Positions 7,127 to 36,997 of a stretch of DNA of 39,850 nucleotides are shown here, in pieces. The notes below the pieces were generated by a model. The model saw nothing but the letters and a program-made list of their open reading frames with translations. It searched no databases and was not told where the DNA came from. This DNA is from Richelia sp. SL_2_1 (GTDB lineage Bacteria; Cyanobacteriota; Cyanobacteriia; Cyanobacteriales; Nostocaceae). Numbering within the stretch: position 1 is the first letter of the stretch; each line of letters starts with the position of its first letter. The stretch lies in the NCBI GenBank assembly GCA_012033205.1, contig JAAUSO010000052.1, forward strand, positions 1-39,850, read 5' to 3'. The translations under genes were made by a program, and so were the position numbers.

Positions 7127-8595
7127 TTAAATATTTAACAAACGAGCAACTGTCTGGGGTAACGGCAGTACAATCAAAATTAACAGTGCAATTGCTAGAA
7201 GTCCAAAAATATCTCGTTTATTATCTAATTCAGTTACATCGTTCAAAGCCGGTTCATCTGTTAAACGTAAAAATATCAAATAAATAGCCCACAATAAATA
7301 TTCTGACTGAATTAAAGAAAGTAATAATAACAGTAAACGCGCAATTTGTCCAATAACCATTGCTGTTTTCTGTCCAAACATTGCATGAACAATATGTCCA
7401 CCGTCAAGTTGTCCTACAGGTATCAAATTTAATGCGGTGACAATTATTCCTAGAAAACCAGCTACTGCTACTGGATGTAAGTCTATTGCCATATTAGACG
7501 TTAACTGAGCGCCTAATGTCAACTTCGAGAGTAGCGCTATTAATATCGAATTTCTGGGATTCAAAGCATCAGGGTTTAACATTGGTGCTTCGTTGTCTAT
7601 GGGGACTATCTGCGAGTTACTCAAACCCCATATTAATAGAGGTAAACTTGCGAGAAAACCTGCAACAGGTCCGGCAATACTAACATCAAATAAAGCTTTA
7701 CGATTGGGTACAGGACTACGCATCTGAATAAATGCACCGAAGGTTCCCAAGAAAAAAGGCATGGGAATAAAATAAGGCAGTGTAGTACGAATTTTGTAAA
7801 ACTTTGCAGTTAAATAATGACCCATTTCGTGTATACCTAAAATGCTCATCAATGATAAGGCATAAGGTAATCCTTGCAATATTAAACTGGGATTAGAGGA
7901 TATTGCCGTAGTTTCAATACCAGCAATTCTGGTTCCGACAAAAGTAGTAGTCAGCAAAGTCGCTACTATCAGTAATAAAGCTAATCCTGGTCGTGTTAAT
8001 TGCTCCTGTTTTAAACCAGCTTTCTTCTGCTGATGATTAGGAACTAACAAAAATATTGGTTTATCGTTATTTAAACCTTCTTGAAAAATTAAAATAAAGC
8101 GATCGCCAAATTCTGCTTCAATATTTTCCTTTACCTGCTGGTAAGCGTTTGTTGCTGAAGTTTTTAACTGACCTCGACAAATCACCGCTTGGGGACGGTA
8201 TTCAATATTTTGAATATAGTATACAGACCAAGGAAAACACGAACGCAATTGACTTTCTTCCGTTGGTTCAATAGGACGCACTGGTGCTGATTCTACGGTA
8301 GGATGTATAGCCGACTCTGTTTTGAGTTCTGGGGATTGATTGTTCCCATCCTTAAGGTTTTTACGCCCCGACTCAAACAATATCCAGTATAACAAAAACA
8401 TATTGCTAATGACCAAAACACTAGTGGCGATGGTAATTGGGTTTCATATATTCTCATCCAACCAGTCCATATTAATGGTGGTGCCATCAATACTAACCAC
8501 AACAGCCAAGCTGGAGTTTTTGTTACTTTTGCAACTGTTTTTTGCAGAGTATAGTAAGTAAATATTCCTAAAATAATTAAAAGCAAAAATGTCAT
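7127..8595 (-). CDS. Site-2 protease family (M50) intramembrane metalloprotease, frameshifted
   Basis: The gene appears as two overlapping frames. The first begins at ATG 8595 (MTFLLLIILGIFTYYTLQ...), carries two membrane segments and runs to ...WSLAICF; the second supplies LLYWILFESGRKNLK and the remaining protein to 7127. Adding one base to the A5 run at 8394-8398 (T5 in the gene) joins them into about 489 residues, the usual size of this cyanobacterial family. The catalytic zinc motif HEMGH lies in the second part, with NLIPVGQLDGGH further on giving the third ligand, among at least six membrane segments. Site-2 proteases cleave membrane-embedded substrates such as anti-sigma factors. The break may be an assembly error, real mutation or slippage. 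Confidence 0.8.
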
Positions 8596-8730
8596 TTGAT
8601 TTTCAGTTTTTTTGATAAGAATGTCTTGTTTTCGGATCGGAACTGCATTTTTTGCTGAAGTTGCGTGCTGTTTTCACAAAGCATTAACCTTTATTTCAAA
8701 CAACCTTTATTCTTTACGCAGTATTTTTTT

Positions 8731-9395
8731 ATGCACCCCCCACAAGAGCCGAGTCATCAAACACACAAGCCACCAAAGGAAATTCTCAACTCTCTATTTG
8801 CATTTCCTCCCAATCGGGACACATTAGGGGGAACCGCTTATTTCATTGTAAGAAACGAAGGCAATATCCTGATTGATTGTCCTGCTTGGAATCAAAATAA
8901 TCAAGATTTTTTAGAAAGTAATGGTGGTGTACGTTGGTTTTTTATTAGCCATCGCGGTGCCATTGGTAAAAGTGCCGAAATCCAAAAAATTTTTGGCTGT
9001 GAAATTTTAATTCAAGAGCAAGAAGCTTATTTATTACCTAAATTAAGGGTAACTGCTATAAGCGAAAAACTTACCATTGATTCGACATCGCAAGTTATTT
9101 GGACACCTGGTCATTCTCCTGGTTCGTCCTGTTTTATTACAATATGTCCGGAGGAATATTGTTTAGTGGAAGACATTTAGTCCCCAATCGAGAAGGAGAA
9201 CCAGCCCCGTTACGAACATCAAAAACCTTTCACTGGCACCGACAAATCAAAAGTATTAAGTCTTTATTAGATACTTTTACACCCCAAACACTTCAATACA
9301 TTTGTCCTGGTGCAAATACGGGTTTTATCCGAGGTAAAGGTGTGATAGATAACGCTTATAATCGTTTAGCTAATCTAGATTTAGCAGAATTATAA
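8731..9395 (+). CDS. MBL-fold metallo-hydrolase-like protein with degenerate metal site, frameshifted
   Basis: The first frame starts at ATG 8731 and reads to ...GHSPGSSCF before running into a stop at 9178. A second frame from about 9132 supplies YYNMSGGILFSGRHLV and the rest to 9395. Adding one T to TTTT at 9132-9135 yields a continuous 221-residue protein. The fold is recognisable from LGGTAYFIV, NILIDCPAW, WFFISHRGAIGK, VIWTPGHSPGSS and ILFSGRHLV. The HxHxDH metal motif is replaced by SHRGAIGK, and the usual Asp after LF-x-G is Arg, so canonical zinc binding seems lost apart from the GHS histidine. It is transcribed divergently from the site-2 protease. Confidence 0.7.
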
Positions 9396-9398
9396 AGA

Positions 9399-9481
9399 AA
9401 GGTCAAAAGTTAAAGGTTAAAGGTCAAAGGTTAGAGATTTGTAATCAACAACTGTCAACTGTCAACTGTCAACTGTCAACT
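9399..9481. repeat. Heptameric short tandem repeats
   Basis: AAAGGTT/AAAGGTC-type heptads (about 9399-9435) are followed by four CAACTGT copies (about 9448-9480). The block reaches into the ctpA stop codon: the last residues and TAG of ctpA are read from related repeat sequence. Confidence 0.8.
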
Positions 9482-10718
9482 AACTCCTAAGTGCTAAGTG
9501 TTCCCTATTTTCTGCTAAGAGTTCTACTGCTGCTTGATATTGAGTATCGGATGAAGTCGCTATTTCTTGTAATTTGATTGGTTCGGAGTTAATTACTTTG
9601 TCAGGGGTAATGCCTAATTTGTTAATATCTCGATGATTGGGGGTTTCATATTTAGCAATTGTCACCGCTAAACCGGAACCATCTGATAATTCAAATAACG
9701 ATTGAATTAAGCCTTTACCAAAGGTTTTTTCTCCGACGAGAGTTGCACGATGATTGTCTTGTAATGCACCTGCAAGAATTTCGCTAGCACTAGCTGTTCC
9801 TTGATTAACTAATATCACTAATGGGTCTTGAGTTAGTGCTGGACCAAAAGATTCAAAACTGCCTTGAATACCTTGCCGATTTACCGTATAAACTACAACA
9901 TCTGAATCTAACCACAGACGAGCAACTTCTATTCCAGCTTGCAATAAACCACCGGGGTTGTTTCGTAAATCTAAAACGTAGCCATCAGCGCCTTTCTTTT
10001 CCAATTCGCCAATAGCACGAGCTAATTCCATGGGGGCGTTGGCGTTGAATTGAGTCAAGCGGATATAACCAATGTTATCTTCCTTCTCTTTTTGTAGTTT
10101 AGCAATTACCGGATTTAAAGTAATGCGATCGCGAACAATTAAAATTTCTTGAGTGGGAGTGTCATCTCTCTCTATCGTTAAGCTAACAGTAGTTCCAATT
10201 CTACCGCGCATTAACGAAGCAGCTTCGTCAAGAGTGAGATTTTCAGTGGGGGTACCTTCGATTTGAGTAATGCGATCGCGGGGCTGAATTCCGGCTTTTT
10301 CTGCTGGTGAACCTGCAATAGGCGCGACAACTTGTAATTGACCAGTTTTCGGTTCAAGAGCAATTTGTAACCCGACACCAGTTAATTCCCCAGAAGTATT
10401 CACTTGTAAACTTCGATATTGTTCAGGATCTAAAAATCTAGTAAAAGGATCATCAAGGGTTTTGAGCATATTTTGAATGGCTTCATAAGCAGAAGAACTA
10501 TCTTTTAACGGTGTCTTCAAAGCTTTTTGTCGCACTTGCGCCCAATTTTGATGATTAAATGTGTCATCCAAATAAGTACGATTAACAATTCGCCAAGCTT
10601 GAGAAACTAATTTTTGTTCGTCTGTTAAAGCGACTGCCGGAAAGCAAAAACTACCAAATGCCAGCCAAAACGCCATTATCAAGGATAAAATGCCCCGAAA
10701 AACCTTTATATTGTCCAT
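9480..10718 (-). CDS. ctpA: C-terminal processing peptidase CtpA (PSII D1 maturation)
   Basis: CtpA cleaves the C-terminal extension of the D1 precursor in the thylakoid lumen so that the manganese cluster can assemble. The 412-residue protein has a signal peptide (about 1-31, ending FPAVA-LTD), a PDZ domain with TGVGLQI and AEKAGIQPRDRI (about 113-195), and the S41 protease core. The likely Ser/Lys dyad is Ser310 in GTASASEI and Lys335 in TFGKGLIQS, 25 residues apart as in the family. The final residues LALRS and the stop are encoded by heptad-repeat-like sequence. It is divergent from petB, an arrangement I recall from other cyanobacteria. Confidence 0.94.
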   Translation of the reverse strand: MDNIKVFRGILSLIMAFWLAFGSFCFPAVALTDEQKLVSQAWRIVNRTYLDDTFNHQNWAQVRQKALKTPLKDSSSAYEAIQNMLKTLDDPFTRFLDPEQYRSLQVNTSGELTGVGLQIALEPKTGQLQVVAPIAGSPAEKAGIQPRDRITQIEGTPTENLTLDEAASLMRGRIGTTVSLTIERDDTPTQEILIVRDRITLNPVIAKLQKEKEDNIGYIRLTQFNANAPMELARAIGELEKKGADGYVLDLRNNPGGLLQAGIEVARLWLDSDVVVYTVNRQGIQGSFESFGPALTQDPLVILVNQGTASASEILAGALQDNHRATLVGEKTFGKGLIQSLFELSDGSGLAVTIAKYETPNHRDINKLGITPDKVINSEPIKLQEIATSSDTQYQAAVELLAENREHLALRS

Positions 10719-11149
10719 AAACTCGACTTTTTTACTTGATTTTCAACCACAATTAGCCATATAGAAGGTCGATTCGCAACCTTCCATAAGATGAAATCTA
10801 TCTCTAGATTATGTTACTTTTTTTATAGAAGTGCTGTGTTGCCGTTATTAATTTTGGGCAACTCACTTCTAAAAACTGGGCAAACAACGCCCGTAAAACG
10901 CTATGATCTACTTTGTATCCATATCTTTTTTGGGCTTGGGTGCATAGTACGCAATACATTCCCTCCCGACTAGAGTGTAATCGTTTCTTAAAACTATTAA
11001 CACTCGCGACAGCAAAAAAGTAAATTGAAAAATCAGCAAATTCTGTAAATTTTGTTTATTTTATTGCTGTCCCCTCAAGTCTCAATTAGCGCATTGCCGA
11101 TAATTGAGATAATTATCAACCGCAATTTATCTCTAGGAATCTGGGTTGT
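10719..11149. promoter_or_regulatory. Divergent ctpA / petB promoter region
   Basis: This 431-base gap separates the divergent ctpA and petBD transcription units and must hold both promoters. It is AT-rich with T-rich tracts, and has a small inverted repeat GATAATT...AATTATC at 11099-11117, about 33 bases before the petB ATG. The short open frame in it (from 10791) has no protein-like character. Confidence 0.5.
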
Positions 11150-11797
11150 ATGACCAACGTTTATGACTGGTTTGAAGAGCGCTTAGAAATCCAAGCGCTT
11201 GCTGATGATGTGACAAGCAAGTATGTACCTCCCCACGTGAATATTTTCTACTGTTTGGGTGGAATTACTCTTACTTGCTTTTTAATCCAGTTTGCCACTG
11301 GGTTTGCAATGACCTTTTACTACAAGCCAACCGTTGCCGAAGCTTATTCTTCAGTACAGTTCATCATGAACGAAGTAAACTTCGGTTGGTTGATTCGCTC
11401 CATTCACCGCTGGTCTGCCAGCATGATGGTGTTAATGATGATTTTACACACCTTCCGAGTTTATTTAACTGGTGGTTTTAAAAAGCCCCGGGAATTAACT
11501 TGGGTAACTGGTGTAATCCTCGCTGTAATTACCGTATCTTTCGGCGTAACCGGCTACTCTTTACCTTGGGACCAAGTAGGGTATTGGGCTGTGAAAATCG
11601 TTAGCGGTGTACCCGAAGCGATTCCCGTGGTTGGAGTTTTGATTTCTGACTTGCTGCGTGGTGGTTCCAGTGTCGGACAAGCTACTTTAACTCGCTACTA
11701 CAGCGCTCATACTTTTGTACTACCTTGGTTGATTGCAGTGTTTATGCTGGCTCATTTCTTGATGATCCGTAAACAAGGTATTTCCGGTCCGTTGTAA
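11150..11797 (+). CDS. petB: Cytochrome b6
   Basis: Cytochrome b6 is the haem-binding core of the cytochrome b6f complex, carrying electrons between plastoquinol and plastocyanin/cytochrome c6 in the thylakoid. The 215-residue length is exactly typical. Cys35 (NIFYCLGG) is the thioether ligand for haem c-n. The paired histidines for the two b haems sit in helix B ([21 protein letters not shown]) and helix D ([12 protein letters not shown] and [13 protein letters not shown]). Four transmembrane helices are evident and the C-terminus RKQGISGPL is characteristic. petD follows after 50 bases, forming the standard operon. Confidence 0.99.
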
Positions 11798-11847
11798 TTC
11801 GAGTAAAATCTCACAATATTAAACTGAAGCAGAGGAACACTTAAGAA

Positions 11848-12330
11848 ATGGCAACAGTTAAAAAACCGGATCTAAGCGATCCACAATTAAGAGCTAAATT
11901 GGCAAAAGGTATGGGTCACAATTACTATGGTGAACCTGCTTGGCCCAATGACCTGCTCTACGTTTTCCCCATTGTAATTATGGGTTCTTTCGCTTGTATC
12001 GTAGCTCTTGCAGTGCTAGATCCTGCAATGACAGGAGAACCAGCAAATCCTTTTGCAACACCTTTAGAAATTTTACCTGAGTGGTATTTGTACCCAGTTT
12101 TCCAAATTTTGCGTTCGCTTCCTAACAAGCTTTTGGGAGTGTTAGCAATGGCTTCTGTACCTCTGGGATTAATTCTTGTTCCCTTTATTGAGAACGTTAA
12201 CAAGTTCCAAAACCCTTTCCGTCGTCCTGTTGCTACTACCGTATTCCTCATCGGGACTTTGGTAACAATTTATTTGGGTATCGGTGCTACCCTGCCCTTA
12301 GATAAGTCTCTTACTTTAGGACTGTTCTAA
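11848..12330 (+). CDS. petD: Cytochrome b6f complex subunit IV
   Basis: Subunit IV corresponds to the C-terminal half of cytochrome b and forms, with PetB, the Qo plastoquinol-oxidation site. The 160-residue protein is of canonical length. It opens with the conserved [32 protein letters not shown] region and contains the [14 protein letters not shown] motif whose PEWY lines the Qo pocket. It has three transmembrane helices. An AGAGGAA ribosome-binding-like stretch lies about 11 bases before the ATG. It is the second gene of the petBD operon; a large hairpin follows about 37 bases after the stop. Confidence 0.99.
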
Positions 12331-12366
12331 ATTACTTAGTTAATCAGAACTTGTTCTAACGTCTGT

Positions 12367-12418
12367 GGGGTTTCTCTAGAAAGTGCTTATTGATATGTAA
12401 GTACTTATGAGAAACTCC
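12367..12418 (+). terminator. Extended hairpin downstream of petD
   Basis: GGGGTTTCTC (12367-12376) pairs with GAGAAACTCC (12409-12418), one G-T wobble, and inside it AAGTGCTTA pairs with TAAGTACTT (one wobble). There is no immediate T run, so it may be a 3' end-protecting structure rather than a classical Rho-independent terminator. Confidence 0.5.
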
Positions 12419-12863
12419 AACGGGCGTTAATTTAAATTAACTTATATTTTTACGCTCTTCTGAAATCAGATAATTATTCAAAAGTTAAAAAGATACGGTA
12501 ATCATCATAATTTTTAAATATCCTATAAGCTTGATACTACGAGCATTACAGAGTAAATTATATTTTTTAGATATTTTCAAAAGCTTTGATCGAAAAATAA
12601 ATTTTGGGAAATAGTATTGCCCAATCGCCAAACTATCGCCTGGTCAGGTATAGTGGAAGGTGGTAAAATACATGGTAATATAAGTAACATCCCAAATCGT
12701 CGTCAACTTAAAGATGCAGTTAAGCAGGTTAGTTGTAATTTAAATTTAGGTTATCTCTGGGATTTTTTTAATTAAGAACAACAAATCAAATTTCAAAATC
12801 GAAAGTTTATAAACTATAAAAGATGTAAGTAAAAATAATCCACCTATATTTAAGTCAAGGTCA
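12419..12863. other. Intergenic stretch with one unexplained 52-codon frame
   Basis: This is an AT-rich gap between petD and the ATPase gene. A 52-codon frame from TTG 12617 to TAA 12775 reads protein-like (LPNRQTIAWSGIVEGG..., ending LNLGYLWDFFN), and its frame stays open some codons upstream. It has no ATG and no clear ribosome-binding site. It may be a gene relic; nothing else is evident. Confidence 0.35.
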
Positions 12864-13304
12864 ATGCTAGCAATTGTGGAGCAAGACCATCTGACGGTTA
12901 AGAGCGAACTAAAGCTTCTAAACCAGGTACAACAATGGTTTGAACAATTCTGTCTGCGTAATTTGTCTGGGCTTAGTTGGCTCGAAAGTCAACAGTATCG
13001 ACTTAATCTAGCATTAGCTGAGGGCTTTACTAATGCTGTTCGTCATGCACATCAAGCTTTGCCACCAGAAACAAACATTGATATTGATGTTTTACTGTGG
13101 AATGACAAACTAGAAATTAGAATTTGGGATTACGGTAAACCATTTAATCCAGATGCCATAGCCGAACCAGAACCCGGTACTCTACAAGTAGGAGGGTATG
13201 GGTGGTTTCTATTACGACGATTAGCAGATCAAGTTGTTTACGAACGGGATACAGATGGTAGAAATTGTTTGCTCATCGTCAAGTATGGTAAGCAGGAAAA
13301 TTAA
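12864..13304 (+). CDS. Anti-sigma-factor-type ATP-binding protein (HATPase_c, RsbW-like)
   Basis: This 146-residue single-domain GHKL ATPase has the N box in LALAEGFTNAVRHA (about 49-62), the G1 box IWDYGKPFNP (about 92-101) and the G2 box GGYGWFLLRRLAD (about 111-123). Stand-alone proteins of this size act as serine kinases of anti-anti-sigma (STAS) partners or as anti-sigma factors in partner-switching circuits. No STAS or PP2C phosphatase gene is next to it, so the partner is elsewhere. It appears to be transcribed alone; the site-2 protease in this window is not close enough to imply a link. Confidence 0.85.
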   Translation: MLAIVEQDHLTVKSELKLLNQVQQWFEQFCLRNLSGLSWLESQQYRLNLALAEGFTNAVRHAHQALPPETNIDIDVLLWNDKLEIRIWDYGKPFNPDAIAEPEPGTLQVGGYGWFLLRRLADQVVYERDTDGRNCLLIVKYGKQEN

Positions 13305-13983
13305 TCGCGAATAGTCTTACATATAGAATTTCTCTATTAGTTAGAAAGCCGACTAAATTGACTCTCAATTTTGGTGAAAACCGATGTAATTAAAATTTAA
13401 TCGTTACTTCTGATTTTTTACTTTTAGTTGCTTGTGTTTCTCCTATATTCAACTCGATTTAGGAGTCGATGCACAAGTCACTTCCGTGTATCTATATAAA
13501 ATACATATATTGAAATTAATTATGATTTACTTAAAATCCTTGTAGAGACCTGGCAATACACCCAATCTCTCAATTTTTTCCAGAGATGTGTGAAATATTC
13601 AATAATTTTTAGGTCAAACTCAACTCAAATTTCAAGGAATTTTTACAGTTGCTAATAATTGTAAATAAATGTATAAAATAAACAGATTAATACCGTATAC
13701 ACAGCATTAAAGTTACAGTGCTATCTTTGTTAAAATTGACAGCCAGAGTCAAAAATTGCTTCCACTTAGGTATCAGTGTGGTTGATCATGCTTTGGATGG
13801 TAATTTTTTAAATAATGAAAAAATTACAGTCAAAATTGCCTTAAATAAAATAATCATGTTTGAATATAGCAATTATTTTCAAAAATTTTTAATTAAACTC
13901 AGTTATCAACTAATGGAACTCATATTCTTTAGATTAAATCGTGGATTAACATCATCCTCAGTACTGAGCAGAGGAATATAAAA
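13305..13983. other. 679-base intergenic region, no credible gene
   Basis: This very AT-rich spacer lies before the glycosyltransferase. An 87-codon frame at 13718-13981 starting at GTG is not supported: composition is that of AT-rich non-coding DNA and no family is recognised. The last bases, AGAGGAATATAAAA, provide the ribosome-binding site for the downstream gene. Confidence 0.5.
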
Positions 13984-15188
13984 ATGTTATTTAACAAAAT
14001 AGATATAAAAAATCATTTAAACTTAATCAAAAGTAAACATCCTAAAAATCTCAATCACATCTTCGTTTTTTGGAAATATTTTCCCGCGAAGGAGGAATTC
14101 AATCTTATGTAAAAGATGTATTTCGAGCTTATGAGACATTACCAGAATCGATAAAAGCGGAAGTATTTTTACTGCGAGATGCAAAAGGCTGTGTAAATCC
14201 GTTTGAATCAGAACGCTTGCAATTTCATTATTTTCAAACAAAGTCTTCTCAAATGGGACGAGCGAGAATGACTTGGGCATTATTAAACCGTTTGATTCAC
14301 CAACGTCCGGATCATGTATTTTGCGGTCATGTTTACCTAGCACCTTTAGTTGGTATGTTGTGCCAACCCTTGGGAATTCCTTATACTGTAATGACTCATG
14401 GTAAAGAGGTATGGCAACCTTTACCAAAGTTAACTAAAGCCAATCTACAAAAGGCTTCGCAAATTTGGACAGTAAGCCACTATACTCGTGAAATCGCTAG
14501 TGGTGCCAATAATTTAGATCCCGATAAAATTCAAGTTTTACCTTGTGCTGTCAATGGCGATCGCTTTACTCCCGGACAAAAACCAGCAGATTTATTAGAA
14601 CGTTATGGTTTGACGGGAGCAAAAGTGTTGATCAGCGTCACGCGATTGTGGTCTGGTGATATTTACAAAGGAGTAGATGTGACAATTCGGGCATTATCGC
14701 AAATTGCCGAAGTTTTCCCCGAAGTCAAGTATTTAGTAATTGGACGTGGAGACGATCAACCCCGCTTAGCACAGTTAGCAGAAGATTTGGGAGTACAAGA
14801 CCGAGTTATCTTTGCTGGATTCGTTCCTACAGAAGAATTAGTGGAACATTATCGTCTTGCCGATGCTTATATTATGCCTTCTCAGGAGGGCTTTGGCATT
14901 GTTTATTTGGAAGCAATGGCTTGCGGAGTACCCGTATTATCCGGCGATGCAGATGGTTCGGCTGACCCATTACAAAATGGTAAACTAGGATGGCGAGTAC
15001 CACACCGCGATCGCGATGCTGTAGCAGCAGCTTGCATCGAAATTCTCACAGGAGATGATCCACGGTGTAACGGAGAATGGTTAAGAAAAGAAGCTCTTTC
15101 ATCATTCGGTATGGAAGCCTTTCAAAAACGCTTGCAACAGCAGTTTTTATCGACAATTAAAAGTAGTGAGGAGTTAGTTGACAGTTGA
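13984..15188 (+). CDS. GT4-family glycosyltransferase, frameshifted near the N-terminus
   Basis: The gene starts at ATG 13984 with an AGAGGAA ribosome-binding site. The first 29 codons (MLFNKIDIKNHLNL...NHIFVF) and the following frame (EIFSREGGIQSYVKDVF...) are out of register by one base at T6 (14066-14071); a seventh T gives HIFVFLEIFSREGGIQ and a 401-residue protein. Family features are the N-terminal Gly loop REGGIQSY, THGKEVW, the sugar-nucleotide site SVTRL...KGVDVTIRAL, the GRGDDQPRLAQL helix, and the E-x7-E type motif PSQEGFGIVYLEAMACGVPV. Such retaining enzymes build polysaccharide or glycolipid; the acceptor cannot be told. The C-terminal EELVDS and stop arise from heptad-repeat sequence. 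Confidence 0.85.
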
Positions 15189-15344
15189 CACTTAGGAGTT
15201 AAAAGTTAATAATTATTTTCTCCTTGTCACCTTGTCCCAAAAGTTTCCTGATTAAAAGTTTAATTTTTGATTATTCACTCTTGACTATTGGATAAACTCG
15301 CTATCCTAGAAGGAGACTTGGATAAATTAAAGATAAATTTAAAA

Positions 15345-15716
15345 ATGAGCTTTAAATCCTTTCAATCGAATTTGTATTATCTACGTCCTTGGCTCACCTT
15401 GTTAGCAATTGCTTGGTTGCTAGGTACATTGGGCTTGGGTTGGTTGGTAAATTCGTTCTTAATTATTCTTGGGTTGCTGTTTTTAGCACCCATTTTGGCG
15501 TTTTTCGGGTTTCGCTGGTGGTTACAACGTAATTTGATTGCTGAAAACTGTCCGGTTTGCGGAACAGAAATTACAGGTTTAAACAATACTCAGTTACAAT
15601 GTCCTAGCTGCGGTGAGAAGTTGCTAGTGGAAAATAGAACTCTCAAACGCTTCACTCCCGAAGGTACTATTGACGTGACGGCTGTAGAAGTACCAGCAAA
15701 ATCAATTGAAGATTAA
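15345..15716 (+). CDS. Small membrane protein with C-terminal zinc ribbon
   Basis: From ATG 15345 the product is 123 residues (a TTG at 15288 would add 19). Two adjacent hydrophobic helices (WLTLLAIAWLLGTLGLGWLV and FLIILGLLFLAPILAFFGF) are followed by a cytoplasmic CPVCGTEI...CPSCGEKL ribbon with two CxxC knuckles, then an acidic tail. No catalytic motif is visible. Its layout mirrors the protein at 1462-1869 with the ribbon at the other end. It follows the glycosyltransferase by 156 bases on the same strand. Function unknown; I recall similar short conserved proteins in Nostocales. Confidence 0.7.
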   Translation: MSFKSFQSNLYYLRPWLTLLAIAWLLGTLGLGWLVNSFLIILGLLFLAPILAFFGFRWWLQRNLIAENCPVCGTEITGLNNTQLQCPSCGEKLLVENRTLKRFTPEGTIDVTAVEVPAKSIED

Positions 15717-15749
15717 CTCAATTACTCAATTAAAGGTGCCTTAAACTAC

Positions 15750-15781: not shown

Positions 15782-15800
15782 ATATAATCTTGACATTCAG

Positions 15801-19312: not shown

Positions 19313-19329
19313 GTAATCCTAACTCTAGA

Positions 19330-20054: not shown

Positions 20055-20095
20055 AGTTATGCTTAAGCGGCAAGTCCATACTCAAATTCACTTAA

Positions 20096-21636
20096 TTATT
20101 GTGCTTGGGCTGTATAATTTTGACCGTAAATTTTAGCGATGCGTCCGGTTTGTACTAAAACATTACGCACTTCTTGGTTAGAAAAATCAGCGAGATTAGT
20201 ATTACGCCAAAGTGCCATACCTGCGGCAATCCCAACTCCTTGTCCAACTCCACAATTAAATTCTACAATTCTACCGGCAGAGCAAGCATAGCCCTCGAAT
20301 CCCGAAGCGGGACTAATAACTGCCAGGTTGGGTATATCTTTAATTAAAGCGTGTTGAATGCCGATGTTAAACAGGGGTTGTTGGATGTGCAAAAGGTGAT
20401 CAATTTGTTTTTCTTCTGCTCTTGTATCTAAACCTTTGATACCACCGCGAATATCAAAATGATAACCAAAGGTTCCTAAAGCTTCATTTTGATTAACTCC
20501 CCCTGCCAGCATTTTCGCCCCGGTTAATCGGTCAATTACTCCCATGACGTTGCCTGCGTGACGAATGTATAATTCATAAGCTGGAGTAACTCTATTTGCA
20601 CCAAGAGCTTTAAACCACTGAATTACATAATCCATTTCTGCGAGCATTTCTGGGGTAGGTTTGGCTTTACCCCGCGCTAATGCTTCCGCTTTGTCGGCAT
20701 TTACATCATATAGGAATGCGTTCCAAGATAATCTACCATTGAAAGAATTGCGACGTTACCATTATCGAGAATTGCGCCACTTTTTTCTAAAATCAAGGGA
20801 GTTGCTCGGAAGGAATGATAAGCGATGGAAAGGGCTTTACAGCGGATATCGATGTAGTCTTTACCCACATACATGGTTTTGAGTTTACCATTGCGATCGA
20901 CCAAATCTTCTCTGAGACGGTTGGCGACTTCTGGATTATTACCTGCGGCTTGATTTAACCATTTTTGAGCGTCTCTATCGTTGAGGTTAGTGAAGCGTTC
21001 GAGGTAAAGTTTTTCTATATGTTGGAGTCTTTGTACGCTCAAACCTTGAGTTTGAAATACTAAGGTAACTGAAAGTTCTGAATCTGGTAAGCCGAAGGTT
21101 TCAAAACCTTTAAGTTTTTTCACTCCCGCAGCTTGGGCTAATTCTGCATTTACGGTGGAGTCGATAAATTGTTTGGCTAAGTAAGTTTCGCGTTTAGTGA
21201 GATTAATCCCAACAATTTTATTTCTTTGTTTGATTACTGATTCAATTTCAATATTGCTTAATATATCAGCGCGAATTTCTGCTAACATTTCCCGTAAGAT
21301 TCGATCCGCTTTGATCGGATCTAAGGCTACTTGAACTACTCCAACTTTTTGCAGAAATTCTTTGTAAATCGCGGGTGCGTCACCAAAAGATTCTAGGTTG
21401 TGCGTTTGCCGAATTTCCAGAGGAATTGAAGACCTATCCAAATAGCTTAAACCACCACGTACTAAATGTCCGCCTACACCTTGTCGGGAATCACCTTTAA
21501 ACATGAGTAAGCTACGCGGGTATTTATTAGTATGTCGATAATATTCCCGTGCTGCACAGATTAAGGTCAAAATACCGGGAAGTTCGTCTCCAAAAGCGAT
21601 GATGTCATAGGTGCGAGTTGTATATGTTTGAGGCAT
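20096..21636 (-). CDS. FAD-dependent oxidoreductase, frameshifted
   Basis: The first frame starts at ATG 21636 (MPQTYTTRTYDIIAFGDELPG...) with a diverged dinucleotide-binding start and a conserved GVGGHLVRGGLSYLDRS region. It runs to ...LSMVDYLG, and then to a premature stop. The second frame continues NAFLYDVNADKAEALARGK...EMDYVIQWFKALGANR to 20096, including LAVISPASGFEGYACSAGR and a Gly-rich GVGQGVGIAAGMALW helix near the C-terminus. One extra base near 20720-20727 (or four, if a Trp is missing) restores about 513 residues. The build resembles the FAD_oxidored family; substrate unknown. Frameshift may be technical. Confidence 0.75.
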
Positions 21637-21765
21637 ATTTTTTTGTAATCTTAATTCTTAAGAAAATCAACAATGTATATCTTGGTGATTTCGTAAGTTT
21701 TCGGGTACCCTTACGGGTACTTTAAATTAAGACTATATTGCAAAAGAATATTACAAAAGCAGCAA

Positions 21766-28706: not shown

Positions 28707-29888
28707 TTAGGAAATGCGATCGCGAATTAAACGTAAGAGTCTTTCGAGTGGTGATTCTATCTTGAGTTGGAATGCTAAAAATTGAGTACGTTGGAGTTTG
28801 TTAAAGTTATTGTCGCTGACTAAAATTAATGAGGGTTGTCCGTTTGGTAAAGTTTCTCCAATAGTTAAACCTTCGGTGTTATCCAATGCAATATCTAGGT
28901 TTCCTAAATTTAATAAAAGTTCTTTTTTAACAGGTTTAATGCTTTTCAAGTCAACTTTTTGTAGACTATCGATATTTTGTATATCATCAGCATTTTCCAA
29001 AGATACTTTGAATAATGAATTTACAAAACCTAAACCTGTAAAAGTTCTTTCTATGCTCAAAAAATGTCCGTGATTATCGAGCGCGACTAAATCGGTTAAA
29101 CCACTAGAAAATCTACCATTAATATTGAAAAATGGTTTGACTATTTCGGTGGGATAAAGAAATTCTTTTTCTAATTTTCTAGTAATTAGATTATATTGTA
29201 AAATTCTGCATAAGCTTCCCTGATTGGCTTTGGCTTCTTCACCATCTTGAATAAGTGCGTTTTCATTAGCTGTAAATAAATGCTTTTTATCAGGTGTAAT
29301 CGCGAGACTTTCAAAAGCTAAGTTGTTACGAATACCACGCTTTTTCTCTTGAGATTGTAAATATTTTTCAGGTATTGCTAAACTAGAAATCTCTTGTCCT
29401 GAATTGAGGGAAAACTCTTTGATAAATGGATTTATTCCCGCGATTGTATCACCTTCAGATGAGACGAATATCGATGAGTTATTAGTTAGTGCTATTCCTT
29501 CTGAATCTATGTTTCCAGGAGAAAAGGTTTTACCATTTTTATCTTTTAAAGTTGTGACAGTAACAGGTTTAATATCGCTACTTTGAAAAGAATCTATATT
29601 AAGATTAATATTAAAAGTATAAAATCTCGCTGGCGATTTTTGAGAACGGTCATCAGATATTGCGTAATAAATTTGGTTTTGACTATCATAAGTTATTCCC
29701 GATAACCCTCCTAATTCAGTATTTTCAAAATTTGTACCTGTGGGTAAAGTTGCTTCGCCGATAAAGTTTATGCCCGTTACCTCAACAGCAGAAGTTCTAA
29801 AGTTACTGAAAAAAAACACCATTATCACAATTGTGACAAAAAAATATAAGTAATGGTAACTTAAATAATTTTTTAATTCCCACGGCAA
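28707..29888 (-). CDS. Secreted phytase-like / esterase-like beta-propeller protein
   Basis: The product (393 residues from TTG 29888; no ATG fits a full signal peptide, so the start is uncertain) has an N-terminal hydrophobic segment (about 13-30). It then carries the phytase-like domain pattern: ELGGLSGITYDSQNQIYYAISDDRS, NIDSEGIALTNNSSIFVSSEG, NLAFESLAITPDKKHLFTANE and NTEGLTIGETLPNGQPSLILVSDNNF. The recurring E-(G/S)-(I/L)-A/T motifs are typical of this propeller family, annotated as esterase-like activity of phytase family. Substrate unknown; likely periplasmic or secreted. A heptad repeat begins right at the start codon, so the true start may have been rearranged. Confidence 0.8.
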   Translation of the reverse strand: MPWELKNYLSYHYLYFFVTIVIMVFFFSNFRTSAVEVTGINFIGEATLPTGTNFENTELGGLSGITYDSQNQIYYAISDDRSQKSPARFYTFNINLNIDSFQSSDIKPVTVTTLKDKNGKTFSPGNIDSEGIALTNNSSIFVSSEGDTIAGINPFIKEFSLNSGQEISSLAIPEKYLQSQEKKRGIRNNLAFESLAITPDKKHLFTANENALIQDGEEAKANQGSLCRILQYNLITRKLEKEFLYPTEIVKPFFNINGRFSSGLTDLVALDNHGHFLSIERTFTGLGFVNSLFKVSLENADDIQNIDSLQKVDLKSIKPVKKELLLNLGNLDIALDNTEGLTIGETLPNGQPSLILVSDNNFNKLQRTQFLAFQLKIESPLERLLRLIRDRIS

Positions 29889-29998
29889 ATTTAGGTTAAA
29901 GGTTATAGGTTAAAGGTTAAAGGTCAAAGGTTAAAGGTTAAAGGTTAAAGGTTAAAGGTTAAAGGTTAAAGGTTAAAGGTTAAAGGTTAAAGGTCAAC
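29889..29998. repeat. AAAGGTT heptad tandem array
   Basis: About fourteen copies of GGTTAAA/GGTCAAA fill the whole gap between two minus-strand genes. The array touches the start of the phytase-like gene and supplies the stop codon (TGA in CAGTTGACC) of the nuclease gene. Confidence 0.95.
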
Positions 29999-31583
29999 TG
30001 TCATTGTATTGGCTTTCAAAAAAGTTAACTAGCCAATCTTTGACGCTGTGAGTTGCTCGACAGTCGTCTTCATTGTAACGTTTGATGACTTCTAATAAAG
30101 CGCGATCGCCAGTTTTCAACCATCTATCATACCAGTAAATACACTTAGCTCCACTGGCTTCTGGGTCACGCCATTCAAATCCCATCCACCGAGCAATCGC
30201 TTTTAAAGCATAACTCTCAACTGGTAATGTGACTGTAGCCGTTAATTGTTCGTAAATATCGACAAATCGATTCAATACTGGGAATACTTTTTTAGAAGGA
30301 GTACGGTGAAGTTTTGCTAATCGCTGCACTGTGTCAAATTCATAAACACAAAAATGATAAATTGGTGCATCGGGATATTGCCATACTAATTCTAAAAATT
30401 GCTGCCAAATTAATTTTTCTTCCTCTGGGTTTTCTGCGAGAAAAGAATAAAATTGTTGGGTATTCTGTTCTCTGTCAACAACTAAAACCCCTAATAAATA
30501 ATTCAAATTCAAATCTGGCTGTGCTTCTATATCAAAGTAGAGTTCTATAGGGGCTGTATAAGTAACAGTTTCGTATACTACTGGGTCAATTTCCACGATT
30601 GTGGGATATTGGATTGATGGCGATCGCCGTTCAATTATTGCGTTATCGTTTGGTAGAGTTAGTAAGGACTGATGTGTTGTTGTTGCAAATTCCTCGGTTA
30701 TCGTTTGTTCAACTAACGCTTGTGGTAAAAACAGGGGACGATTTTCGAGTAAAGATTTTCCCTGTAAAACAAGTTGAGTAGCAACTTCAGTATCAAAACC
30801 GGGTAAGTCTTCTAATTCTGAAGGATTAGTTTGAGTAAGAGATTCTAAAGTCGTAATGTCAAGGATTTTTAACCAATCGTAACGACCTGGGGTTACTCCC
30901 GGTACTAAAGAAAGATGTTTTTGTGTGGAAGCAGTTTGATGACAGCTACTGTACCAATTACAAAGACTGCATTTTTGCCGAGAAATAAATACTTCCGGAG
31001 GTGTTGGTAAATAAAGAGTTTGGATACATTCGTCCAAGATTTCTTGCATCCGGGGTATCCATTTGACTAAATCAACGTTGTATCTAGTTTCTTTTCCCCG
31101 CAACATCAACCAAGCAGTTTCCAACTCAACTTGTTGTACTGCTTCTAAAACAAAAGCATAAAATGCAGCAATAACTTGATATTCTTGTTTAGGACGCTTA
31201 CCTAATTCAACTCTAGCGGGAACGTACATCCAATCTCCGAATATTGAATTACCCGGTTGCTTGATGAGTAAATCCGGACGTGCTAGCAGAGTATGATTGT
31301 CAGCATAACTTGTTGTCAGTATCCCTTTATAAATGTATTCAACTCCCTGCTGCATCAATTCCAAAGTTGCCGCTTCGGCAGTTTTCGGTTCCCCCTTGGA
31401 AAACTTCGGACGTTGATAACTGATTTGTTCTAAAATATGTTTTTTATGAGCATATTTATCTTGATACAGTTTTAGAAGTAAGTCGCTAGGAGCATCTTGC
31501 TGATTCTTATCGCCGCGAACATTCAAAAACGGTCGGCGTTTACACTTTTGATATTGTAGTAGTAGTTCGGCATTAATTAACAT
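29994..31583 (-). CDS. TM0106-family RecB-like nuclease (Cas4-like Fe-S nuclease plus DEDD exonuclease domain)
   Basis: The 529-residue protein has an N-terminal Cas4/RecB-like nuclease: LLARPDLLIK (Asp about 104) and ARVELGKRPKQEYQV (Glu126, Lys129) form the PD-(D/E)xK site. Cys14, Cys205, Cys208 and Cys214 (CSLCNWYSSC) are spaced as in 4Fe-4S nucleases. A helix-hairpin-helix-like linker follows (ELEDLPGFDTEVATQLVLQG). The C-terminal half is an RNase H-fold 3'-5' exonuclease with IELYFDIEAQPD and KRYNEDDCRATHSV. Such proteins are annotated as TM0106 family putative nuclease and presumed to act in DNA repair; direct function is unknown. No cas genes are nearby. Confidence 0.88.
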   Translation of the reverse strand: MLINAELLLQYQKCKRRPFLNVRGDKNQQDAPSDLLLKLYQDKYAHKKHILEQISYQRPKFSKGEPKTAEAATLELMQQGVEYIYKGILTTSYADNHTLLARPDLLIKQPGNSIFGDWMYVPARVELGKRPKQEYQVIAAFYAFVLEAVQQVELETAWLMLRGKETRYNVDLVKWIPRMQEILDECIQTLYLPTPPEVFISRQKCSLCNWYSSCHQTASTQKHLSLVPGVTPGRYDWLKILDITTLESLTQTNPSELEDLPGFDTEVATQLVLQGKSLLENRPLFLPQALVEQTITEEFATTTHQSLLTLPNDNAIIERRSPSIQYPTIVEIDPVVYETVTYTAPIELYFDIEAQPDLNLNYLLGVLVVDREQNTQQFYSFLAENPEEEKLIWQQFLELVWQYPDAPIYHFCVYEFDTVQRLAKLHRTPSKKVFPVLNRFVDIYEQLTATVTLPVESYALKAIARWMGFEWRDPEASGAKCIYWYDRWLKTGDRALLEVIKRYNEDDCRATHSVKDWLVNFFESQYNDS

Positions 31584-31768
31584 TATTTTAAGTTAACAAG
31601 AATTAGTGCAATCTGGGAGTAATCAAGATAACCAAAATTGGTGTTGTGTAATGTACATTGCTTATAGCAGTATTCCCGATTCGGATAAGCAAAGGAAACA
31701 GGTTTTAAAAGATATGAAGAAAAATCGGTTTGAAATAAGTTGTCGCGCATTTAATTTGTATTTTTCTA

Positions 31769-31832
31769 GCGGGCAGGATGCCCTCGAACCCTTCACTTCG
31801 TTCAAGGGTAAACTCCGTGAAGGGATGCCCGC
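31769..31832. repeat. Nested 64-base palindromic element
   Basis: Outer arms GCGGGCA (31769-31775) and TGCCCGC (31826-31832) enclose inner arms CCCTTCAC (31789-31796) and GTGAAGGG (31817-31824). This gives a two-tier cruciform in otherwise AT-rich DNA, with no reading frame of note; likely a dispersed repeat. Confidence 0.6.
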
Positions 31833-31870
31833 ACTACAAAACTTTAATAAAATTTGAATATACTTTCTTA

Positions 31871-31919
31871 AAGGGTTTTTAGCTTATTTAAAAGTTAAAT
31901 TTACTGTTTAAAAACCCTT
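31871..31919. repeat. Inverted repeat AAGGGTTTTT / AAAAACCCTT
   Basis: Ten-base perfect arms at 31871-31880 and 31910-31919 are separated by 29 AT-rich bases. It lies in the 499-base gap between the nuclease and the class V enzyme, which otherwise holds no gene. Confidence 0.55.
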
Positions 31920-32028
31920 ATAAAGTCAATAAATCGGTCGCTTTGAACCCGTTTTATCATCCAAAATCCATCTTAAAAAACCTGCTCCCGTAAGTTTCTG
32001 CTCTAGCAGCTTTCCGCAAAATCCGAAA

Positions 32029-32080
32029 CAAATACATCCGTTGTTAAAATCCAAAATCCAAAATCTAAAATCTAAAATTG
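32029..32080. repeat. 52-bp leader repeat, copy 2
   Basis: Nearly identical to 19330-19381. It ends two bases before the ATG of the class V PLP enzyme, so any ribosome-binding site must lie within the repeat; none is obvious. Confidence 0.85.
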
Positions 32081-32082
32081 GT

Positions 32083-33270
32083 ATGACAAGTATATCTGCT
32101 ACACCAACAGGGTTGCATCAATATCGACAACAATTTCCCGCTTTAGCGAATAAAGCTTATTTTAACTTCGGAGGTCAAGGACCGATGCCGCAAACGGCGA
32201 TGAATGCCGTAATTCAAGCCCAAGATCAAATTCAGCGAATCGGTCCTTTTGGCAGCGAAGTTAATGCTTGGCTTATACAACAGACTAAAGCCACTAGAGT
32301 CGCAATTGCAACCGAGTTGAATGTACCATCGGAGACAATTACACTGACTGAAGATGTAACCGTTGGTTGCAACATTGCCATGTGGGGCATTGATTGGAAA
32401 CCAGGAGACCATATACTTCTGACAGACTGCGAACATCCGGGAATTGTTGCTACGGCTCGTGAAATAGCACGTAGATTTTCTGTAGAAGTGACTACTTGTC
32501 CAATCATGGCAACTTTAAATAATGGCGACCCTGTAGCAATAATTGCTCAGCATTTGCGCCCCCGTACCCGTATGGTGGTGTTAAGTCACGTACTTTGGAA
32601 TACAGGACAAGTTTTACCTTTAGAAAAGATAGTAGTCTGCTGTAGAAACAATAATACAAAATTAATGGTGGATGCAGCGCAATCTGTCGGATTATTGTCA
32701 TTAAATCTTGGCGAATTGGGAGTCGATTTTTATGCGTTTACAGGTCATAAATGGTTGTGTGGACCTCCGGGTGTAGGGGGTTTGTATGTGCGTCCCCAGG
32801 AACGGGAAAGTCTCTATCCTACCTTTGTTGGTTGGCGTAGCGTTGTTATTGATGGTCAAGCTCAACCTGTAAAATGGCAAGAAACCGGGGAAAGATATGA
32901 AATCGCAACTTCAGCTTATCCCTTTTATGTTGGTTTAACCGAAGCAATTTCAGTGCATCAAAAATGGGGTACATCCGAAGAACGTTATCAACGAATTTGT
33001 CGTAACAGCGAGTACCTCTGGAAAAAATTAATGGCAGTATCGGGTATAAAATGTCTACTCCATTCTCCCCCCGAATCGGGTTTAGTTTCATTTGAACTGG
33101 AAAATAATCAATCTAAAACCAGTTTAGAATTAGTCAAATTTTTAGAAGCAAAAGCAATATTTACCCGTACAATTGCTGACCCAGATTGTGTCCGTGCCTG
33201 CGTTCACTACTTTACTTTAGAATCGGAAATCGATCAATTAGTTGAGGAAATTCAGGGATTTTGTAAATAG
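32083..33270 (+). CDS. Class V PLP-dependent aminotransferase-fold enzyme, probably a cysteine/cystine C-S lyase type
   Basis: The ATG at 32083 (395 residues) is preferred; the longer frame from 32041 is translated heptad repeat. Fold-type I class V signatures are seen: LTEDVTVGCNIAMWG, CEHPG for PLP stacking (His118), VDAAQSVG (Asp197) and the Schiff-base lysine in FTGHKWLCGPPGVGG (Lys223). The N-terminal YFNFGGQGPMP resembles the cyanobacterial L-cysteine/cystine lyase C-DES, which releases persulfide for Fe-S assembly, more than SufS; no SUF genes are near. Exact substrate is inferred only. Confidence 0.82.
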   Translation: MTSISATPTGLHQYRQQFPALANKAYFNFGGQGPMPQTAMNAVIQAQDQIQRIGPFGSEVNAWLIQQTKATRVAIATELNVPSETITLTEDVTVGCNIAMWGIDWKPGDHILLTDCEHPGIVATAREIARRFSVEVTTCPIMATLNNGDPVAIIAQHLRPRTRMVVLSHVLWNTGQVLPLEKIVVCCRNNNTKLMVDAAQSVGLLSLNLGELGVDFYAFTGHKWLCGPPGVGGLYVRPQERESLYPTFVGWRSVVIDGQAQPVKWQETGERYEIATSAYPFYVGLTEAISVHQKWGTSEERYQRICRNSEYLWKKLMAVSGIKCLLHSPPESGLVSFELENNQSKTSLELVKFLEAKAIFTRTIADPDCVRACVHYFTLESEIDQLVEEIQGFCK

Positions 33271-33397
33271 GTAATTGGTAATTGGGAGTTAGTTGACAGT
33301 TGACAGTTAATTTGTTCCCTACTCCCTATTGCCTATTCCCTATTCCCTATTCCCTATTCCCTACTCCCTACTCCCTACTCCCTACTCCCTGTTCCCT
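33270..33397. repeat. Heptameric short tandem repeats
   Basis: GGTAATT-type units directly after the class V gene stop are followed by GTTGACA units and then by about ten CCCTATT/CCCTACT heptads. The rest of the gap to ftsH (33398-33593) is AT-rich and must contain the ftsH promoter. Confidence 0.9.
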
Positions 33398-33593
33398 AAC
33401 ATGGTAAAAAGTCTTAAAATTAAGTTACATTTAATTAAGAATAATAATAAATTCTTGGCAAATGTCGTAAAGCAGTTTTAAGCGAATGCGGCAAGTCATG
33501 AAAATTAAACAAATCGGGATTTATATACATCCGTTTCACATAACTTATGTTAACGGGGTGATGCATCCCATTGGTATCTAGAGGCAAATTAAA

Positions 33594-35479
33594 ATGAAAT
33601 TCTCTTGGAGAGTCCTAGTTCTTTGGACCTTACCTGCTTTAGTGATAGGCTTTTTCTTTTGGCAGGGAGCCTTTGCGAATACTCCTGCTGATATGGGTAA
33701 AAATGCAGCTAGTACCCGGATGACCTACGGTCGCTTTCTGGAATACTTAGATGCTGGTCGAGTCACTATGGTGGATTTGTATGAAGGTGGTAGAACGGCG
33801 ATTGTGGAAGCTGTTGACCCAGACCTGGAAAATCGGATTCAGCGCGTGCGGGTGGACTTACCTGTTAACGCTCCAGAGTTGATTAGCAAGCTCAAAGCAG
33901 AAAATGTTAGCTTCGATGCCCATCCTGCAAGAAATGATGGAGCTATCTGGGGACTGTTAGGTAATTTAATTTTCCCCATCTTATTGATTAGCGGACTGTT
34001 CCTTTTGTTCCGTCGTTCTAGCAATCTTCCCGGTGGTCCCGGTCAAGCCATGAATTTTGGCAAATCTCGCGCACGTTTCCAAATGGAAGCCAAAACTGGA
34101 GTCATGTTTGATGATGTAGCCGGGATTGAAGAAGCGAAGGAAGAACTCGGTGAAGTTGTGACTTTTCTTAAACAACCAGAGAAATTTACTGCTGTCGGCG
34201 CACGCATTCCCAAAGGTGTATTGTTAGTCGGACCTCCGGGAACTGGTAAAACCTTACTAGCAAAAGCCATTGCTGGAGAAGCGGGAGTACCTTTCTTTAG
34301 TATTTCCGGTTCCGAGTTCGTGGAAATGTTTGTCGGTGTGGGTGCTTCACGGGTACGTGATTTGTTCAAGAAGGCTAAAGATAACGCTCCTTGTATCATC
34401 TTTATTGATGAAATTGATGCTGTAGGTAGACAGCGGGGTGCAGGTATTGGTGGTGGTAATGATGAGCGGGAACAAACCCTCAACCAGTTGCTTACGGAGA
34501 TGGATGGTTTTGAAGGTAACACTGGTATCATTATTATTGCTGCTACCAACCGTCCCGACGTACTAGATGCGGCGCTGTTACGTCCCGGACGCTTTGACAG
34601 ACAAGTGATGGTTGATGCACCCGATATTAAAGGACGTTTGGAAATTCTCCAAGTCCATGCACGTAACAAGAAATTAGATCAAAGTGTATCTCTCGAAGCC
34701 ATTGCGCGTCGGACTCCCGGCTTTACGGGTGCAGATTTGGCTAACTTGCTCAACGAAGCAGCAATTCTCACAGCCAGACGACGTAAAGAAGGTATTACCC
34801 TTACAGAAATTGATGACGCTGTAGACCGGGTAGTTGCTGGTATGGAAGGCACACCTTTAGTAGACAGCAAGAGCAAGCGTTTGATTGCTTACCATGAAGT
34901 CGGACACGCTTTGATTGGAACCTTGGTTAAAGACCACGACCCAGTACAAAAAGTGACTTTAATCCCTCGCGGACAGGCACAGGGTTTGACTTGGTTTACT
35001 CCTAGCGAAGACCAAGGATTGATTAGCCGTTCTCAGTTGAAAGCGAGAATTACTGGTGCTTTGGGCGGACGTTCTGCCGAAGAAGTGATTTTTGGTAGAG
35101 ATGAAGTTACCACTGGTGCCGGAAATGACTTACAACAAGTTACGGGTATGGCGCGACAATGGTAACGCGATTTGGGATGTCCGATTTAGGACCTTTATCA
35201 TTGGAAAGTCAACAAGGAGAAGTATTCCTTGGTCGTGACTGGACGACACGTTCGGAATATTCGGAATCAATCGCGGCTCGTATCGATTCTCAAGTTCGCA
35301 CTATCGTTGAAGAGTGTTATAAAAACGCTTTACAGATGATGCGTGACCATCGCAGCTTGATGGATAGATTAGTTGATTTACTAATTGAAAAAGAAACTAT
35401 TGATGGTGAAGAGTTCCGTAGAATTGTGGCTGAATATGCGGAAGTACCGGAAAAACCACAATACGTTCCATCTTTGTAA
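33594..35479 (+). CDS. ftsH: ATP-dependent zinc metalloprotease FtsH (FtsH2/slr0228 type), frameshifted
   Basis: FtsH2-type protease degrades photodamaged D1 in the thylakoid membrane as a hetero-hexamer. Order of features: first membrane helix (about 7-26), lumenal region, second helix (about 120-142), Walker A GPPGTGKT, Walker B IIFIDEID, second region of homology ATNRPDVLD...RPGRFDRQ, and the zinc site HEVGH. The first frame ends at ...GMARQW* (stop at 35163) while [16 protein letters not shown]... continues one base out. Adding an A to AA at 35158-35159 gives GMARQMVTRFG and a 628-residue protein, the normal length. Loss of the C-terminal helical part would likely inactivate an important protease, so an assembly error is the simplest explanation. 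Confidence 0.93.
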
Positions 35480-35514
35480 GATTTCTCAAAAATTTGTCAA
35501 GCCATAATAGTTAA

Positions 35515-35543
35515 GGGGATGCGATAATGTCGCGTCCCTTTTT
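35515..35543 (+). terminator. Rho-independent terminator of ftsH
   Basis: GGGATGCGA (35516-35524) pairs with TCGCGTCCC (35530-35538, one wobble) over a 5-base loop, and five Ts follow. It lies 37 bases after the ftsH stop. Confidence 0.85.
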
Positions 35544-35581
35544 AATCTGAGGGGTAGGGAGTAGTTTTATCAATATGGAAA

Positions 35582-35645
35582 ATTATTAATTACCAATTAC
35601 CCATTACCAATTACCAATTACCAATTACCAATTACCAATTACCAG
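35582..35645. repeat. AATTACC heptad tandem repeat
   Basis: About nine CCAATTA/CCCATTA heptads lie in a row between the ftsH terminator and the 3' end of the AAA-like gene. Confidence 0.9.
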
Positions 35646-35666
35646 TCAACAGCGAATAATAACTAA

Positions 35667-36997
35667 TTATCCGGACATGACATTACCCAAATATTTAGAA
35701 AAATACGGACGATATAATTCTCTACTCAGAATTAGACCATCAGAAGCGAGTTTAACTAATCCGATGCTTTCTAATTTATAAGCAGATGTAGGGTAAAGAT
35801 TTAGACCTGTTTTAGCTGTAAGTATTTTGGCGAATTCTAAGACTAAATCGGGATTTTTTGCAAAACATCTAATTTTTCTCGTAAATGATGCCGATAAATT
35901 CCTTTATCCGTACTAGCTTGTTCTAATAACTGCTCTAAGCTTAGTTCTTGTTGACTTAAATGATAAAGTGCAACATTAATTAAAGTTGGTTGCCCCCCAA
36001 TTATTTCCATGAGTTTTTGAGCTTGATTACCCTGCTGCCAATTTAGTCCGTATCGTGCTGCTAATTCCTCTACCTGCTCCTGTGTAAATTCAGGTAAATT
36101 GATGGGTAATCCAATATTAAATGGTGAACGGTTTAAGTTTAAGGGAACATAAATATCGGTTGAATAATCCAGAACTAAACGCAATTTTTGCCAAATGTAA
36201 TTATACTGCGCTTTTTCATGCCAAGAACGTAATAATGGTAAGAATTCCTGAGCTAGTAGTGGATATTCAAAAATGAGATTGAGTTCATTAAATGATAAAA
36301 CTAAAGGACTATCAGCAGCTTCTAATATATAAGTTTGAAAATAAAAAGTACAGCTTAATTTACTACCAATTTCTTCATCCCAATATTCATCAAGCTGGGG
36401 TTGAATATCCAAACTTCTGGAAGCAATACTGCATAACCAGCGCAAAAAAACGTTTAAATCTAAAAATTTATCCGCATCTACTAAATTTAAATCTAAATGT
36501 ACTGTACGATAACCCAATGATTTGGCATAATCTAATAACCTGTACTTTAAGGAAGTTTTTCCCATTCCTTGAGGGGCTTTGATGCGGATTAGACAGCCAG
36601 AACGGGGAATTTCTCGTTCAATTAATTGCTCAATCGGAGGACGGGAAATATACAATTTGGAATATAACGATACAGGTCTACTGGGATATTCAATAGTTTC
36701 AAATTTGTCTAATTCTTCATAGATGCTGTAATCTGACTCAGTTAACTCTAAATCGAAAGCGCTAAAGCAAAGTTTTATGGAGCGCGAGTCTAATGGCGTT
36801 TTCAAAGACCACAATCGCGATAATGTATTGGTGGAAATTCCGATCCGCCGGCTTAGTTCTTCCTGAGTAAAACGCACACCATCATTTTCTTGCAACTGTG
36901 CTGTTTGTATCGCACTTTGCAGCCGTTTTAACCCAGTTGCAGTCAGTGTTATACCTCGTTTTCGCTTCTGCTTACTACCCTCCATTTCGGTAAACAC
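35667..36997 (-). CDS. HTH (vMAP-type) plus AAA-like domain NTPase, frameshifted near the C-terminus
   Basis: Residues about 16-90 form a helix-turn-helix-type domain (LTATGLKRLQSAI, FTQEELSRRIGISTNTLSRLW, FSAFDLELTESDY) that resembles the N-terminus of vWA-MoxR-associated proteins in predicted conflict systems. An AAA-like domain (PF14516-type by recall) follows: VSLYSKLYI, Walker A APQGMGKTSL (141-150), and LVLSFNELNLIFEYP where relatives have an Asp-Glu Walker B. The frame stops at ...QKIPI*; one more T in T6 (35854-35859) gives QKNPDLVLEFAKILTAKTGLN... through to TAA at 35667, ending GNVMSG. No vWA or MoxR gene is in the window. Role in signalling or defence is inference. Confidence 0.72.

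Follow-up and report, generated by a model that had tools for sequence, protein, structure and literature searches.

The window, the whole 39,850-nucleotide stretch of DNA analysed here, is contig C72 of a Rivularia-like genome of 7.55 Mb that is assembled in 359 contigs and is 98.3% complete. Six genes in the window have a reading frame that is interrupted and that the addition of one base would restore:

Site-2 protease (Peptidase_M50), minus strand, gene at about 7130-8673; break at 8394-8398, where an A/T run lacks one base.
MBL-like protein, plus strand, gene at about 8665-9392; break at 9132-9135, where a T run lacks one base.
Glycosyltransferase (Glycos_transf_1), plus strand, gene at about 13984-15185; break at 14066-14071, where a T run lacks one base.
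FAD-dependent oxidoreductase, minus strand, gene at about 20066-21645; break at 20738-20742, one base short inside the relative's 9-mer CAAATGGTA.
FtsH (ftsH), plus strand, gene at 33582-35476; break at 35157-35159, one base short inside the relatives' 9-mer CAAATGGTA.
AAA_35 (AAA-like domain) protein, minus strand, gene at about 35670-36997; break at 35854-35859, where a T run lacks one base.

Frame breaks were scored both by DNA alignment to relatives and by protein-to-DNA alignment with frame switches, and both types of alignment showed a net deficit of one base relative to the relatives in all six genes, as the sequence-only reading had proposed. The same-genus relatives in the DNA alignment of the window were G001, G002, G004 and G006; G001 and G002 are the nearest relatives compared, with 97% identity across ftsH. 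At 8394, 9131, 14071 and 35157, the window is shorter by one base than all four of these relatives. The break at 35859 is one base short of all three relatives that cover the site, and that at 20740 is one base short of the single covering relative, G001. The 515-residue ORF of the relative's site-2 protease is split at residue 93, and the breaks in the other genes fall at residue 179 of 265 (MBL-like gene), residue 304 of 529 (FAD oxidoreductase, window 20740), residue 526 of 632 (ftsH) and residue 383 of 443 (AAA_35 protein). The glycosyltransferase is interrupted within a conserved N-terminal stretch, about 29 codons past the likely ATG at 13984. At four of the six sites the window has A/T runs of 4-6 bases, and the ftsH and FAD sites are 3-base runs within CAAATGGTA; AA alone remains at two of the six.

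Some details of the sequence-only reading required revision. The break in the FAD oxidoreductase exists, but its position had been given as 20720-20727, which is 13-20 bases away from the site at 20740 indicated by alignment. The intact relative of the MBL-like protein has no Pfam match at E<=1e-8, and the MBL label comes from that earlier reading only. The description of each gene as broken once holds for the six breaks counted, but the MBL-like gene has an additional indel at 8722 relative to G002 and G004, which is absent relative to G001 and G006. This position, at the uncertain start of the gene, was left out by hand, and two indels at 29837 and 29845, at the beginning of a Phytase-like gene, and one at 37477, within a true gene remnant, were set aside in the same way; 8722 and 37477 are nevertheless inside the automatic counts given below. 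The remnant (window 37289-37509) derives from a gene for a family 3 solute-binding protein, of which only residues 234-307 of 307 are matched, in two frames.

Frame-breaking losses across the assembly

A break was counted where an indel of 1, 2, 4 or 5 bases disrupted an ORF of at least 150 residues in one genome, with the other genome intact. Coding breaks were chosen as the measure because natural intergenic indels dilute the signal when all indels are counted; one-base indels in coding and noncoding DNA together, relative to G001 and G002, amounted to 162 losses and 106 gains. The first set comprised 20 stretches, each no longer than 20 kb, from large contigs elsewhere in the assembly. Selection was by the size of the contig rather than random, and counterparts were found in G002 for 18 of the 20 and in G001 for the remaining two. 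The window and contig C127 also belong to this set; they were picked with their breaks already known and supply 8 of its 38 breaks. A second set consisted of 20 further stretches, with G002 as the sole comparison. The automatic counts were not cleaned by hand and include some noisy rows. In locus names, G000 denotes the present genome and L-numbers denote the sampled stretches (for example, L135 on G000:C127).

The first set (296 kb) contained 38 breaks in the present genome and 5 in G002, and the excess was repeated in the second set (308 kb), with 28 breaks as against 7. Over the 604,020 bases aligned to G002 in both sets, 66 short frame-breaking indels were found in the present genome, compared with 12 in G002. 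The one-base frame-breaking indels of the present genome were predominantly losses (53, versus 7 gains; binomial p 8e-10), while those of G002 in the same alignment were 3 losses and 9 gains. In the control pair, G001 versus G002, each genome had 8 breaks (208 kb). A frame-breaking loss occurs in the present genome about once every 11 kb of aligned sequence, and its breaks are distributed uniformly along the ORFs (KS p 0.91).

Run length and sequence context of the losses

The rate of loss rose with the length of the A/T run in ORFs of at least 150 residues, from 3.3 per 10,000 runs of three bases through 7.9, 66 and 130 to 403 per 10,000 runs of seven bases; runs of eight bases showed 1 loss among 37. 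A/T runs of at least three bases accounted for 35 losses, at a mean run length of 5.2, and 18 of the 53 losses lay in runs no longer than two bases. None of the 5,399 G/C runs of at least three bases was affected, where about 3.7 losses would be expected at A/T rates. The homopolymer under-call suggested by the sequence-only reading is supported by the climb in loss rate with A/T run length, but the losses in short runs and the 9-mer shared by two of the six window sites indicate that the effect is not purely a homopolymer one.

Among A/T runs of at least five bases where G001 and G002 agree, 15 are shortened and 2 lengthened in the present genome. At runs of 3-4 bases where the two agree, it is longer at 7 and shorter at 2, in a comparison whose script is blind to runs cut to two bases. 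A global shortening of A/T runs was considered and rejected, as overall run lengths show no visible shortening in the present genome relative to those of the relatives; none would be expected at such a loss rate.

Of 18 aligned sites of the 9-mer CAAATGGTA, 4 lack one base in the present genome, namely those in the window ftsH (35157), the FAD gene (window 20740), a second ftsH (L135:3531, on G000:C127) and a transporter permease gene (L142:3471). In the window ftsH and its paralog on C127, the loss occurs at the identical codon. All four losses are among the 8 sites of the first set, and none of the 10 sites in the second set is short; 3 of these 10 carry a substitution in the motif in the present genome. 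By comparison, none of 110 CAAATGG sites without the TA had lost one base (Fisher p 3e-4, for a comparison chosen post hoc). Three more losses directly precede ATGGTA (L141:3360, L141:9139 and L144:333). Lists of the 20 most enriched and 20 most depleted 6- to 8-mers were compared, and no matching pair was noticed.

The reading frame of CAAATGGTA differs between ftsH and the FAD gene, and in L142 the motif lies on the non-coding strand; it therefore does not act via translation. The losses at the motif are most readily ascribed to a context-dependent calling error, since neither its frame nor its strand is constant. As the main cause of the breaks at large, an error specific to CAAATGGTA was rejected, its excess being post hoc and absent from the second set. 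One-base losses were also seen at GGCGATCGC, which we take to be a HIP1-type site, at L151:5769, L223:2198 and L143:4793 (3 of 152 aligned sites, strands counted separately), possibly through another context effect.

Constraint on the broken genes

Breaks were present in 47 of the 404 genes compared, with one lesion in 37 of them and two or more in 10. When the genes were divided into quartiles of non-synonymous divergence, from most to least constrained, the losses per 100 kb were 10.1, 8.9, 8.3 and 17.7; the rate is thus about flat over the three more constrained quartiles and about double in the least constrained. Non-synonymous and synonymous codon changes numbered 4772:8974 in intact genes and 848:1234 in single-lesion genes (611:1060 when one divergent pentapeptide gene is removed). 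The 10 multi-lesion genes gave 385:329, a raised non-synonymous share relative to intact genes. Some real decay is therefore likely, given the roughly twofold rate in the least constrained quartile and the raised non-synonymous share of the multi-lesion genes, some of which may be true pseudogenes. A GH31 glycosidase gene and the gene of a GCV_T-type protein (L140:10757-11259; L222:5429-5680) have three or more lesions each and are likely to be either real pseudogenes or clusters of errors.

The window ftsH, although broken, differs by 1 non-synonymous and 50 synonymous codons in 631. The coaE gene, of which one copy exceeds the family cut-off, is interrupted at residue 59-60 of 194. The single-copy dnaN loses its frame at residue 383 of 402, which touches the last 19 residues only. 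One cut each was found in genes for glutamate synthase, a CobN/Mg-chelatase protein and a SufB/SufD-family protein, in mutS, in the window ftsH and in the second ftsH. The coaE, dnaN, glutamate synthase, CobN/Mg-chelatase, mutS and SufB/SufD genes are essential or near-essential, and a cell bearing all of these housekeeping lesions together is hard to imagine. The occurrence of one-base losses across the sampled assembly, housekeeping genes included, suggests that they are most likely sequencing errors and not biology.

In G004 (C102:15564-18391 and C98:14618-15168), the match to dnaN is divided into two parts that lie about 2.5 kb from each other, as would be seen for an interrupted gene, and the match to coaE is likewise in two pieces. 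Broken copies of these two genes are therefore not unique to the present assembly.

Alternative explanations

Real breaks might be tolerated if some full-length product arose at A/T runs, either by slippage of RNA polymerase or by programmed ribosomal frameshifting. Slippage rescue at A/T runs occurs in insect endosymbionts, and the runs of 4-6 bases at four of the six window sites would suit such a process; however, the ftsH junction is uninterrupted in all 28 relative loci that cover it, so that there is no conserved recoding signal there (30 loci were fetched, the other two being the present genome and a locus ending before the junction). In 80 wider loci, a single ORF spans the junction in each of the 30 good matches to the MBL-like gene, in 27 of the 29 to the site-2 protease and in 18 of the 32 to the glycosyltransferase; of the other glycosyltransferase matches, 12 start within 15 residues of the junction, too near to tell, and 2 are fragments. 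The AA that alone is left at two sites and the varying frame and strand of CAAATGGTA also speak against rescue at these positions, which makes tolerated breaks scarcely credible. A real, sequence-specific deletion of one base at CAAATGGTA-like sites, combined with A/T slippage and with products rescued at the RNA level, has in our judgement a very slight chance of being correct.

The break in mutS, which is cut at about residue 447 of 874 by a single loss in a T run (L143:12779, on G000:C174), makes a mutator lineage a serious rival, in which lost mismatch repair would lead to homopolymer slippage genome-wide, and the dependence of the losses on A/T run length agrees with it. Loss of mismatch repair should raise substitutions too, transitions above all. 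A raised substitution branch was sought among three genomes and was absent: over 211,039 triple-aligned sites, the present genome has the shortest branch, with 3,549 unique substitutions compared with 4,277 in G002 and 8,093 in G001, and its transition/transversion ratio is 1.53, as against 1.48 and 1.27, respectively. Short indels in excess with no excess of substitutions are as expected of indel-prone sequencing. As losses also far outnumber gains and housekeeping genes are among those broken, a mutator is extremely improbable.

Genome-wide pseudogene formation through fixed frameshifts, as reported for Nostoc azollae, had been named from the outset as a less likely alternative, and our results disfavour it further. 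It would accommodate the large fraction of broken genes, the relaxed constraint in the 10 genes broken more than once, the highest loss rate in the least constrained quartile and the true solute-binding protein gene remnant in the window. Against it stand the similar rates in the three more constrained quartiles, the preservation of most of ftsH, mutS and coaE apart from a single lesion, the single-copy status of coaE and a substitution branch that is the shortest of the three genomes. The comparison with erosion covers indels of up to 5 bases; larger deletions and insertion sequences are typical of genome erosion. The N. azollae genome (PMC2900214) and the present one are alike in having many broken genes in a filamentous cyanobacterium, but they differ in that constraint is largely kept in the single-lesion genes of the present genome and a single-copy housekeeping gene is broken. 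We regard pseudogene formation as a very unlikely source of the six breaks.

Origin of the breaks

Contig ends in the assembly contain heptamer tandem repeats, such as (AACTCCT)n at window 39741-39850, and also dispersed repeats of about 100 bases. Of 21 contig ends examined, 8 start within or close to a short tandem repeat, as judged by eye, and the exact overlaps between the 21 ends are 20-23 bases long and lie within the tandem repeat. Contigs that end at short tandem or dispersed repeats argue against long reads and for short reads, and the platform was presumably an indel-prone short-read system such as Ion Torrent or 454.

Ion Torrent bacterial assemblies contain frameshifts from homopolymer indels, with a mean run of 5.5 and adenine most affected (PMC12046094). 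The present assembly resembles them in that one-base indels break frames, at a mean A/T run of 5.2, and differs in its large surplus of losses over gains and in the 18 of 53 losses that fall in runs shorter than three bases; its platform is moreover a presumed one. In nanopore assemblies, systematic indels, mainly in homopolymers, give rise to hundreds to thousands of spurious pseudogenes (Homopolish, PMC8011154). The present assembly is in 359 contigs, several of which end at short tandem repeats, and is in this respect probably unlike a typical long-read assembly.

The spectrum of the breaks, their rise with run length, their weak dependence on constraint and the short substitution branch fit under-calls and not erosion or a mutator. 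Judged from these comparisons, the six breaks are very probably consensus (base-calling) errors in the deposited assembly and not a real feature (probability about 0.92), and the cells most likely have intact genes. We infer that the DNA in the cells is itself intact. The sequencing chemistry or the consensus caller would count too few identical bases in A/T runs and, less often, would drop one base in other contexts. Such a technical under-call, proposed in the sequence-only reading, is supported by the recurrence of the excess in the second set, by the ratio of losses to gains and by the failure of constraint to spare genes, and it also fits the split in single-copy coaE and the unlengthened substitution branch. 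Counting against it are the absence of affected G/C runs of at least three bases, which a flow-based platform should miscount too (although few hits were expected), the four losses at CAAATGGTA, for which run length does not account, the divided coaE and dnaN matches in G004, and the signs of real decay in the least constrained quartile and the multi-lesion genes.

The ratio of losses to gains, the rate by run length, the dependence on constraint and the substitution branch help to tell artefacts of this kind from genome erosion without reads. For the present organism, any tally of pseudogenes, lost genes or short proteins made from this genome would be misleading, because 47 of the 404 genes compared carry at least one break and most of these breaks are probably spurious.
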